A stretch of DNA of 22,854 bases from a virus, in IMG/VR virus record IMGVR_UViG_3300036671_000152, positions 1-22,854 of that record, one strand, 5' to 3'. Shown piece by piece: positions 3,735 to 6,744 of this stretch. Made by a program: the position numbers and the translations under genes. The notes below the pieces were generated by a model. That model was not told the origin of the DNA, did no database searches, and worked only from the letters and a program-made list of their open reading frames with translations. Position 1 is the stretch's first letter. Each line of letters opens with the position of its first letter.

Positions 3735-4904
3735 TTAAGAGGCAGCTCCACCAGTGAACTTGCGAATGTGGGTCGTGTGAGAAAGTTTCCCATCAACACG
3801 CATTGAGAAACGGTAAGTAACCGTATCCTTATTGAACGCGTAGTCCGACGAGGAAGCAACCGCGAGGCCGCCAGCCATACGCACTTTGTACGAAGGCATG
3901 TGACCGAACAACACGCTAATCGCAGCAGCGGCAGGATCAGCGATGTTTGGGTTTTCGATAACATCGAACCCGGCAAACTGGTCAGGCTGTCCGATACCAA
4001 CCGTGTAAAGGTACTGGTTGTTGTCGTCCTTCAATTTCCGAAGGGCACCAATACCCGCACCAGAAGCCATGTAAGCAGTACCAGGCAGACGACGAACCAA
4101 ACCATCCACGCCCGAGTAGGCAAGGTCGATCAGGTTATCGGCAGTAAAGGCACCAGCAACAGCAGACGCGCCAGTAACACCAGCAGAAGCACCCACCACA
4201 ACACCTTGAGGTTTGGACGAACCATCGCCAGTGGTGAGTGCAGAGTTGATAGCGGTACCAAGACCGTTACCAGCCTGGTTAGCAAGGTGGGCCTCAAGGT
4301 CGAATCCGGAGTCGGATACTAATTCTGAACTCACCGGTATGAGAAGGCCATATTTAAACGCTCCCAAAGTGATGCTCGCGTAAGTAGGTTCAGACTCGGT
4401 CATAGCAGCACCGGCAGCGGAAAGCACCGCAGAGCTATAAGCGGTCAGTGTAGGAATTGTAAGGTCTTCACCAGACGTAGTGTTGAAACGTTCTCCAACC
4501 TCAAGCATCGGCCCAACCAAACGGGCAACATCGAACACATTTGAGTAAAATGATTTAGGGACGGTGTTAGCAGAAGGCACCAACGTAGTGCGACGCTCAA
4601 AGTGATGGCTGCGAGTTTCACCGCGACCAATGGAACGCAGAATGTCATCCGAGGAACGCGACTCAGCACTTACAGGGGCGAACCCGCGTGATGCTTCCTC
4701 AGCCTCAGTAACACGCTGTGCGTTACGGGTAGCAACCTCAATAGCAGCATCCGCACGACGAATGTCAGCCTCAATACGATCAATCTTTTCTGAACCAGCA
4801 ACATCAAGGCCACGACCCTCAGACTCGGCGGATTCCAAAACTTCACGAATCTGCATTGTCAGGTTAGCGCGTGCCTCTTGCTGGGTTCTAATGAACTCAG
4901 ACAT
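3735..4904 (-). CDS. Major capsid protein, HK97 fold
   Basis: A 389-aa protein. Residues 1-70 form a charged, helical delta-domain-like segment (QEARANLTMQIREVLESAES; EKIDRIEADIRRADAAIEVA) of the type that acts as an internal scaffold and is cut off by the capsid protease. From about residue 105 the mature region follows, with PKSFYSNVFDVARLVGPMLE, the E-loop area (TTSGEDLTIPTLTAYSS) and SKPQGVVVGASAG, a well-known HK97-family signature. The C-terminus (SSDYAFNKDTVTYRFSMRVD) matches the P-domain/A-domain strand that ends these proteins. It is encoded directly downstream of the tmRNA-like RNA with a 265-base leader full of inverted repeats. The ribosome site GAAAAGAG precedes the ATG. There is a long separation from its protease gene, so the gene probably has its own promoter. 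Confidence 0.95.
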   Translation of the reverse strand: MSEFIRTQQEARANLTMQIREVLESAESEGRGLDVAGSEKIDRIEADIRRADAAIEVATRNAQRVTEAEEASRGFAPVSAESRSSDDILRSIGRGETRSHHFERRTTLVPSANTVPKSFYSNVFDVARLVGPMLEVGERFNTTSGEDLTIPTLTAYSSAVLSAAGAAMTESEPTYASITLGAFKYGLLIPVSSELVSDSGFDLEAHLANQAGNGLGTAINSALTTGDGSSKPQGVVVGASAGVTGASAVAGAFTADNLIDLAYSGVDGLVRRLPGTAYMASGAGIGALRKLKDDNNQYLYTVGIGQPDQFAGFDVIENPNIADPAAAAISVLFGHMPSYKVRMAGGLAVASSSDYAFNKDTVTYRFSMRVDGKLSHTTHIRKFTGGAAS

Positions 4905-4983: not shown

Positions 4984-5050
4984 TATCCGGTACCCCAATT
5001 TTACCGCGAGAGTGTATACGTACTTTTATGGAAGCCGGTGTCCACGTTTT

Positions 5051-5090
5051 TATGTCACATACGTACCTAGTTGGGTACATATGTGACATA
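5051..5090. repeat. 17-bp inverted repeat upstream of capsid gene
   Basis: Arms 5051-5067 and 5074-5090 pair with one mismatch around a 6-base loop. The arms contain TATGTCACAT and ATGTGACATA. An adjacent half-site (TGTCACA, 5093-5099) gives a competing pairing. Confidence 0.7.
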
Positions 5091-5101
5091 AGTGTCACAA
5101 G

Positions 5102-5119
5102 CGTACCAAAATTGGTACG
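5102..5119. promoter_or_regulatory. Perfect 18-bp dyad, operator-like
   Basis: CGTACCAAAATTGGTACG has eight perfectly inverted bases on each side of a 2-base centre. It lies about 50 bases past the 3' end of the tmRNA-like RNA. The symmetry and length fit a dimeric repressor site; the binding protein is unknown. Confidence 0.5.
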
Positions 5120-5169
5120 GTATTGACTCGTTCCGTACACAGCAAACTTTATTGGGTACAGGAACCTAG

Positions 5170-5248
5170 TGGAAGTGTGGGGACTCGAACCCCAGTCCAA
5201 CAAGGATCCGCAAGCGGCATTTCCTCGCTGTCGAAACCATCCACTCCC
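5170..5248 (-). ncRNA. tmRNA-like RNA: tRNA-like domain without mRNA-like domain
   Basis: Read on the minus strand, this 79-nt sequence folds as the tRNA-like domain of tmRNA. The 5' GGGAGTG pairs with 3' CACTTCC in a 7-bp acceptor stem, including a G3-U70 wobble, the alanine identity element, followed by discriminator A. The stemless D-loop segment reads GATGGTTTCGA and, with the next bases, contains GGTTTCGAC as in mycobacterial tmRNA. A 9-bp P2 stem (5222-5230/5198-5206, two G-U) follows. P2 is capped by a short hairpin with a CUUG tetraloop instead of the tag ORF and pseudoknots. GGAC precedes a perfect T arm (TGGGG-TTCGAGT-CCCCA). CCA is not encoded. There is no space for a tag reading frame. 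Known tmRNA fragments at attachment sites keep only the 3' end, whereas both ends are intact here. It could sequester alanyl-tRNA synthetase, SmpB or EF-Tu, or be processed from the capsid mRNA. Confidence 0.78.
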
Positions 5249-5249
5249 T

Positions 5250-5293
5250 AAAAAGAAAACCTGCCCGTACCCATAAGGGGCAGAGGGGCAGGT
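5250..5293 (-). terminator. Intrinsic terminator-like hairpin directly before the tmRNA-like RNA
   Basis: On the minus strand ACCTGCCC (5293-5286) pairs with GGGCAGGT (5266-5259), followed by TTTTCTTTTT that ends two bases before the RNA 5' end. It could end an upstream transcript or, if the nearby promoter is active, serve as a leader hairpin or attenuator. Confidence 0.65.
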
Positions 5294-5311
5294 GTTAGTA
5301 ACACAAGTATA
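5292..5311 (-). promoter_or_regulatory. Extended -10 promoter with palindromic operator
   Basis: On the minus strand TGCTATACT gives an extended -10 (TATACT at 5311-5306), with no good -35. The predicted start near 5299 falls inside the perfect dyad GTGTTAGTAACAC (5292-5304). Transcription would run into the hairpin and the tmRNA-like RNA, about 50 bases downstream. Confidence 0.5.
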
Positions 5312-5473: not shown

Positions 5474-5523
5474 ACACAAAGAGAAACCTCCCGCGCACCA
5501 GAAGGGGGTAGGCGCACGGGAGG
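5474..5523 (-). terminator. Strong intrinsic terminator of the packaging/protease operon
   Basis: Arms 5487-5499 and 5511-5523 form a 13-bp stem with two G-U pairs (minus-strand CCTCCCGTGCGCC with GGTGCGCGGGAGG) and an 11-base loop. TTTCTCTTTGTG follows. It lies just after the stop codon of the 72-aa gene at 5537. Confidence 0.85.
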
Positions 5524-5536
5524 AAGTTAAACCCTA

Positions 5537-5755
5537 CTAACGCTGCTCAACAGCACCAATAACGCGGGTCTCTTTTTCTACCTGCTCGGTAGCGCCCTTA
5601 GACACTTGCGACAACACTGGCGATTTCCGAACAGAAGCATTATCAAGCTCCAGAATAGCATCCGCAAACTCAGGGGCCAACACTTTTATAGCTCCCACAG
5701 AAGGATGCTTAGCAACTTTCATAATTGCCTCAATAATTTGTTCACGACTAGCCAT
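5537..5755 (-). CDS. Hypothetical 72-aa protein after capsid protease
   Basis: The protein starts MASREQIIEAIMKVAKHPSV, continues with a helical LAPEFADAILELDNASVRKS and has a polar tail ending GAVEQR. I recognise no family. It lies two bases after the protease stop and is the last gene before a strong terminator, so it is co-transcribed with packaging and capsid maturation genes. In many siphoviruses this slot holds a small scaffold-like or capsid-associated protein. The helical, charged composition is compatible with that, but nothing in the sequence proves it. Confidence 0.7.
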   Translation of the reverse strand: MASREQIIEAIMKVAKHPSVGAIKVLAPEFADAILELDNASVRKSPVLSQVSKGATEQVEKETRVIGAVEQR

Positions 5756-5757
5756 TC

Positions 5758-6744
5758 TTATGCTCCTAACAATAGTTCTAGCTTCTTCTTCTTCAGCGCA
5801 AGCTTTTCCAACTCGCCCGTGAAGTCCTCCACTGGGGGAGCCTCAACCGCGGGGGCCAACTCATCAATCACCGTAGTCAGCAGTTGCCGATCATTGGCGC
5901 TAATGTCCTCACCGTTCTCAATCTTCAGCAACGCATCCGCAAGCGCATCAGCATCCACCCCAGAACGCTTAGCAGCCTTGTCCAGGCCACGCACCATCGT
6001 AGTCCCAGCGGTAGCCGTATAGGCAGGGAACGCCACAATAGACACCTCATGGAGTGACACGCGGTTCAGTGTCCTCACGGTGCCGTCACTGTTCCACTCA
6101 TCCCCACCACGCGCCACAGTGAAACCAAACGACATAGAATCCACGTCACCACGCTTGATAAGCTCACGCGCATCATTCCCCACCGTTGTATTAGCGATGT
6201 CTGCCTCCACATACAGGCCGCGTGCATCCTCACTAATCCGTAGGGTGTTAGCCCTTGTTGAGGCCAGAACGTCGCCGGTGCTGTGATTCCAGAGAAGCTT
6301 AATGTCATTACGGTTACGCAGTGACCCACGGAAAGCCCCCGGCGCGATACGCTCCGTGAACGGTAGCGGCTCACTATCCGAATTGAACACAGCGGCATAC
6401 CCGGAGAACTGCATCCCAGTATCGGTTTCGCGTATCTCAAAATCGGCAGCATTGACACGGGTTTCCATTTTGCTCAAAGCTTGGCCTTTAGCCCTTCCAT
6501 TATTATCTTGCTCCACTTTACCAATAACCTCATCGGCGACCGCCAAAAACCGTTTCACCGTGGGGGCACCCAAAACAACACCCCACACAGTATTCCCAGA
6601 CTCGGTAAGCGCCTCACGCGCCTCCACCCACATGCCAGGGGTCATCCCACCATGCGCCACCGCGTTAGCAACCTCCACATCGACAGCACGCCGAGCAATC
6701 GCACGCACCCACGAGGGAGGCATCAAAACATCCGACTCCATCAT
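5758..6744 (-). CDS. Capsid maturation protease (HK97 prohead protease, U35) with extra N-terminal domain
   Basis: A 328-aa protein. The protease core spans about residues 93-255: METRVNAADFEIRETDTGMQ, GYAAVFN, ERIAPGAF, the catalytic His in LWNHSTGDVLA and the catalytic Ser in RGDVDSMSFGF, then SLHEVSIVAFPAY. This is the standard prohead protease pattern. The C-terminal about 70 residues are acidic then Lys/Leu-rich, ending LEKLALKKKKLELLLGA, and may act as a scaffold-like coiled coil. The first about 90 residues (MMESDVLMPPSWVRAIARRA...) are not part of the usual family. The ATG at 6744 overlaps the portal stop by four bases, which supports the long start, though METRVNA could be an internal start. 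It cleaves the delta domain of the capsid protein and probably itself. Confidence 0.9.
   Translation of the reverse strand: MMESDVLMPPSWVRAIARRAVDVEVANAVAHGGMTPGMWVEAREALTESGNTVWGVVLGAPTVKRFLAVADEVIGKVEQDNNGRAKGQALSKMETRVNAADFEIRETDTGMQFSGYAAVFNSDSEPLPFTERIAPGAFRGSLRNRNDIKLLWNHSTGDVLASTRANTLRISEDARGLYVEADIANTTVGNDARELIKRGDVDSMSFGFTVARGGDEWNSDGTVRTLNRVSLHEVSIVAFPAYTATAGTTMVRGLDKAAKRSGVDADALADALLKIENGEDISANDRQLLTTVIDELAPAVEAPPVEDFTGELEKLALKKKKLELLLGA

Follow-up and report, generated by a model that had tools for sequence, protein, structure and literature searches.

The minus strand of a viral DNA (IMG/VR record IMGVR_UViG_3300036671_000152; the window, the whole 22,854-nt stretch analysed here) carries, at positions 5248 to 5170, a complete tRNA-like domain (TLD) of tmRNA that lacks the mRNA-like domain. 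This mini-tmRNA is best explained as a functional phage RNA gene and is not a relic, and it belongs to a large family of RNAs of about 80 nt, mostly without annotation, whose sequences indicate that it is under strong selection. On balance, and with limited confidence, we favour a role as a chargeable, message-less competitor of host trans-translation, by which the phage would probably jam or bypass the host rescue system.

Structure of the Mini-tmRNA

In transcript order the element reads GGGAGTG-GATGGTTTCGAC-(P2/hairpin/P2')-GGAC-T arm-CACTTCC-A and measures 79 nt to the discriminator A73. A search of Rfam with cmscan matched it to the tmRNA model RF00023 (66.6 bits, E 3.2e-24, gathering score 47), in an alignment that spans model positions 1 to 374 and in which about 300 model positions are missing from the window copy. 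RNA folding (minimum free energy −32.3 kcal/mol, z −2.2) recovered a 7-bp acceptor stem with G3-U70, composed of the 5' strand GGGAGTG (5242–5248) and the 3' strand CACTTCC (5171–5177), which bears U70; a 9-bp P2 stem (5' strand 5222–5230, 3' strand 5198–5206); and a T arm of 5 bp with a TTCGAGT loop (5178–5194), all on the minus strand. The deformed D region, GATGGTTTCGAC, occupies 5230–5241. In the predicted fold P2 is topped by an internal loop and a 3-bp hairpin, and alignment A2 places the small capping hairpin that replaces the mRNA-like domain at 5209–5219; its commonest form across the family is AAAGCCGCAYGCGGA. These results bear out the initial annotation, which had recognized from the letters a complete TLD with its mRNA-like domain deleted and had named the same three stems.

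The mRNA-like domain, the tag frame and the pseudoknots are absent, and the small hairpin closes P2. Some 30 nt are too short to fit a tag ORF, and the lack of a resume codon, tag coding sequence (CDS) and stop codon, also claimed at the outset, holds: there is neither room nor a conserved frame for them between the P2 strands. The RNA must be read from the minus strand, since the opposite strand would turn G3-U70 into an A-C mismatch. In the genome the discriminator (5170) is followed by CTA, so that CCA is not encoded and would need to be added post-transcriptionally. An anticodon arm with a 7-nt loop and a four-armed cloverleaf are likewise absent, while the capping loops vary between 4 and 5 nt; a degenerate or decoding tRNA was rejected given that the mini-tmRNA has no anticodon loop. 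ARAGORN, run on the window, reported neither a tRNA nor a tmRNA. A covariance model of the family, R1, scores the element at 86.2 bits (E 4e-23), the window being among the 46 sequences from which R1 was built.

Relatives in Viral Contigs and Isolated Phages

Pattern scans of viral contigs revealed at least 159 loci, a few of them belonging to the window, to phiPsal1 or to genome contigs; at least 103 distinct elements have an acceptor of 6 or 7 bp. The first scan demanded TTCGAC, GGAC and the T loop and left the acceptor and discriminator free; the second, which used the inner hairpin and T arm alone, yielded at least 43 loci and at least 28 distinct elements. Four pattern matches (L010, L094, L100, L125) were dropped for lack of a proper acceptor. 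The RF00023 gathering score was exceeded in 35 of 36 carrier records. Among the matches listed from the first scan, C74 is present in 96 of 103 distinct members, and CCA is encoded by only 21 of the 103. The contigs of the CCA-encoding members have a lower GC content (median 0.44 versus 0.54), which may reflect other hosts. In the subgroup L186, L187, L188 and L194, TTCGAC is replaced by TTAGCC or TAGCC, and GGAC by GGTAC; its members offer a possible test of SmpB dependence.

Nine isolated phages carry the element: phiPsal1, pSt2308, LuckySocke, Shaeky, Alone3, BRock, GiJojo, Riptide and Tomas. None of their nine records has a tmRNA annotation at the site. BLAST against phage records placed the same element at 5569–5650 of Pontimonas phage phiPsal1, where it carries no annotation and again shortly precedes the major capsid gene; PMC6106888 describes a lytic phage whose map is circular and which shows no sign of integrating. 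In the Streptomyces phages pSt2308, LuckySocke, Shaeky, Alone3, BRock and GiJojo the mini-tmRNA lies inside tRNA arrays, occupying in Shaeky the gap between tRNA-Phe and tRNA-Leu, and an RNA ligase gene is found nearby in the BRock group. The hypothetical ORF annotated as gene 44 of GiJojo (L170 2999–3241), which the mini-tmRNA overlaps, is probably not a real gene. A form with a diverged D-loop was found in Riptide (L003 1476–1552), in Tomas (L175 1201–1278) and, by BLAST, in Naboo, whose record is without any annotation. The Riptide and Tomas copies, located among tRNA genes, have the D-loop GGTTAGATA or GGTGTGATA and GAAT replacing GGAC, and keep an intact acceptor and capping hairpin.

The initial annotation had proposed searches with tmRNA models and with a custom covariance model. 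Besides the RF00023 match, R1 scores the copies in these Streptomyces phages at 63–93 bits, several of these being R1 building sequences, while full tmRNAs and tRNAs reach no more than about 36 bits. BLAST matches confined to the T arm in Gordonia phages GMA2 and GodonK, a fecal phage and LR756500 proved to be full tmRNAs and were set aside, as was a match in Pseudomonas phage SM1, a permuted tmRNA. The SM1 gene is an unannotated two-piece permuted form (L205 474–773; RF04321, 118.6 bits). The GMA2 record holds, near its tRNA genes, an unannotated full tmRNA (L171 223–634) and a Pistol ribozyme (L171 944–1000; RF02679, 56.8 bits), together with a sub-threshold Y RNA-like match (L171 659–768).

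Covariation and Alanine Identity

Compensatory changes in the acceptor, P2 and T stems had been set beforehand as a test of the proposed structure, and they are present. With 103 distinct homologous elements and this strong covariation, the structure far exceeds what chance would give. Across 46 distinct sequences 94.8% of cells in the named structure are paired, compared with 69.7% in shuffles and 38–52% when the structure is slid, and the covariation score is 0.635 against 0.135, with both-side changes at 14 pairs. By element, 98.8% of acceptor cells are paired, the first three acceptor pairs being invariant; P2 has 90.6% of cells paired and both-side changes at all six counted pairs; and the T arm has 99.1% of cells paired, with both-side changes present. 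A position-fixed count on 65 sequences, which involves no alignment fitting, gives the same picture for P2 and the acceptor. When phages with the capsid arrangement are compared with one another, the RNA aligns at about 75–82% and the start of the capsid leader also aligns, but the rest of the spacer does not.

The claim that the determinants of alanine identity are intact was confirmed, and they are kept in nearly all members of the family. G3-U70 was found in 101 and A73 in 102 of the 103 distinct members among the matches listed from the first scan. In the second-scan set all seven acceptor pairs, G3-U70 and A73 are each kept in 28 of 28 distinct members, and the D-region TCGAC and the GGAC each in 21 of 28, again among the matches listed. 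Alanine identity is thus held more strictly than the D-loop motif (28/28 versus 21/28 among those matches).

Genomic Context and Distribution

In the window the mini-tmRNA lies between two minus-strand genes, with the head maturation protease gene (5758–6744; PHROG 80, E 6e-56) upstream and the major capsid protein gene (3735–4904; PHROG 10, E 1e-54), whose start is 265 nt away, downstream. The interval between the RNA and the capsid gene contains strong nested inverted repeats (5050–5127; 18-nt arms at 94%, 27-nt arms at 78%), perhaps an operator or a transcript-end structure. On the other, upstream side of the RNA, the 280-nt spacer holds two more hairpins, with 11- and 13-nt arms, at 5256–5296 and 5487–5523.

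This arrangement recurs: at 33 of the 34 loci with a capsid homologue, representing 16 distinct elements, the mini-tmRNA precedes the capsid gene on the same strand by no more than 270 nt. In other lineages its neighbors are exonuclease, replication-initiation, HNH, DnaB or primase genes, the terminase-portal gap or tRNA arrays, and the RNA is found on either strand relative to them. Since the contexts vary, the mini-tmRNA is best described as a stand-alone RNA gene and not as punctuation of one mRNA. The tRNA content of the carriers ranges from none, as in the window and phiPsal1, to about 30.

Known hosts, assigned from the isolated phages, are actinobacteria. A strict pattern search of approximately 85,000 bacterial and archaeal species genomes gave three matches, two of them credible with a proper acceptor, and both of these are metagenome-assembled genomes; the covariance model under strict filters detected no mini-tmRNA in 395 further actinobacterial genomes. 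Neither an SmpB gene nor a second, full-length tmRNA was detected in the 36 carrier records, among which the viral contigs are often fragments, leaving host SmpB as the only candidate partner. No integrase was found among the 20 window ORFs scanned or in the phiPsal1 annotation.

Proposed Role and Alternatives

In the model of a competitor of host trans-translation, host RNase P and 3'-end processing would release the mini-tmRNA from a phage transcript; it would receive CCA, and host AlaRS, recognizing G3-U70, would attach alanine. The charged RNA would then bind host SmpB and EF-Tu and, being message-less, would keep SmpB and stalled ribosomes occupied, leaving nascent chains without the proteolysis tag. 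The model presumes that the RNA is expressed and that the phage would benefit. EF-Tu is known to deliver the TLD with SmpB to non-stop ribosomes (PMC8012679).

This role, one of several suggested in the initial annotation, is favored by the precedent of mycobacteriophage DS6A, by the absence of phage SmpB from the carrier records, and by a placement likely to give high expression; by analogy with DS6A it appears the best supported of those suggested. PMC4131195 and PMC11915505, citing Mao 2009, state that a DS6A-like molecule strongly inhibits tmRNA in E. coli, and the former adds that inhibition was irrespective of chargeability, with SmpB titration perhaps the cause. Phage Wildcat expresses its full tmRNA more strongly than any other lytic gene (PMC7474061), making high mini-tmRNA levels plausible, and placement upstream of a capsid gene or within tRNA arrays would suit high expression.

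The D-loop motif region of tmRNA is a contact for SmpB. Its change in 7 of 28 distinct members among the matches listed, and its divergence in Riptide and Tomas, count against the competitor role. Plain SmpB titration also leaves the strict retention of G3-U70 and A73 unexplained, since the inhibition described in PMC4131195 occurred with chargeable and unchargeable molecules alike. The invariant alanine identity suggests an action of the charged RNA on ribosomes.

The same constraint bears on a second explanation, rescue without a tag, which we regard as unlikely, yet as a serious rival. Here Ala-mini-tmRNA, with host SmpB and EF-Tu, would enter non-stop ribosomes and take the nascent chain, extending it by at least one untemplated alanine before it falls away or is hydrolyzed; the phage would gain ribosome recycling without ClpXP-type tagging. 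The strict alanine identity agrees with this scheme, as does the mRNA-independent synthesis of polyalanine in vitro by SmpB and a TLD fragment (Shimizu and Ueda 2006, as quoted in PMC3929946). Mitochondrial CDS-less tmRNAs, moreover, are found together with SmpB, and a part in dealing with incomplete mRNAs has been proposed for them (PMC11915505). One carrier phage encodes an RF-1/ArfB-domain protein, but such a protein was found in only 1 of 28 carrier records, so that release of the chain would be left to the host, and the inhibition of tmRNA by the DS6A-like molecule, as reported in PMC4131195, points the other way. The RF-1/ArfB-domain gene lies at 129073–129366 of a 146-kb phage (L065, G015), in an open frame of 179 aa. 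The wider proposition, that charged message-less tmRNAs specific to viruses are widespread and add alanine template-free to stalled chains, beyond mere titration of SmpB, is in our judgment doubtful; on that reading the members with a diverged D-loop may have given up SmpB altogether.

A third explanation, which we consider improbable, assigns the mini-tmRNA to a phage translation kit, as a resistant stand-in that would sustain tmRNA-like or Ala-tRNA-like activity while host RNases attack tRNAs. Its location within the tRNA arrays of Streptomyces phages and the RNA ligase gene near it in the BRock group would be expected of such a kit. The window and phiPsal1, however, carry the mini-tmRNA without any tRNA, and a molecule with no anticodon loop cannot decode, nor can one with no message tag.

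The initial annotation also suggested a processing punctuation of the capsid mRNA; acting in cis, it would process the leader of that mRNA through RNase P and a 3' cleavage at the mini-tmRNA. Despite the regularity of the position ahead of the capsid gene on the same strand, the other lineages, with either strand and quite different neighbors, remove punctuation as a general role; it would in any case require neither G3-U70 nor the tmRNA D-loop, and we regard it as very improbable. Finally, an attachment-site or excision remnant of host ssrA, a common integration site and one for which an ssrA-like stretch is annotated as attR in a Pseudomonas phage record, had been called less likely in the initial annotation and is refuted for the family by the retention of both halves with covarying P2 stems, the lack of an integrase among the scanned window ORFs and the description of phiPsal1 as lytic.

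The family points to host ribosome rescue as a target that phages hit repeatedly, a proposal testable in Streptomyces lividans and other laboratory hosts. The family also supplies natural minimal TLDs for work on SmpB, alanylation and template-free peptidyl transfer.

Relation to Known Systems

The window element has the traits of a TLD-only (CDS-less) tmRNA, namely homology to both ends of tmRNA, no mRNA-like domain, and G3-U70 with A73. The initial annotation knew of no clear phage case; it is nevertheless not the first, since PMC4131195 and PMC11915505, both citing Mao 2009, describe such a tmRNA in mycobacteriophage DS6A, which the former lists as "TLD only". No publication on the mini-tmRNA family was found in a search lying mostly outside subscription journals.

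Full phage tmRNAs, such as those of Bxz1, Wildcat, Gordonia phages GMA2 and GodonK and the Streptomyces BE phages, have the same TLD and often lie in tRNA arrays, but keep the mRNA-like domain and tag that the mini-tmRNAs are without. The capping hairpin CCGCAYGCGG resembles a CTA-NGCAYG-TAG hairpin that immediately precedes P2 in full phage tmRNAs, a likeness in a short motif which suggests that the mini-tmRNA arose by deletion of the tmRNA middle. With tRNA-Ala the mini-tmRNA shares the 7-bp acceptor, G3-U70, A73 and the T arm; in contrast to tRNA-Ala, it has no anticodon arm, a deformed D region and a tmRNA-type P2. The CDS-less tmRNAs of jakobid and oomycete mitochondria and the plastid forms of about 65 bp (RF02544; PMC11915505) also consist of a TLD without a tag frame. 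The mitochondrial RNAs are usually permuted, with a nucleus-encoded SmpB, whereas the phage RNAs are in one piece and their genomes are without SmpB.

The closest relative is the DS6A gene (tmID 11587), likewise a phage gene with little beyond the TLD, no tag CDS and an actinobacterial host. It differs in being known from a single phage, compared here from its published description, while the present elements form a large and diverse family with measured covariation and several contexts. The single odd case thus becomes a large family in phages of actinobacteria, and probably of other hosts too, that had escaped tmRNA annotation in nine isolated phages and, in the window, ARAGORN. The kind of molecule was known from one phage; new here are the breadth of the family, its covariation, its contexts and its alanine constraint.
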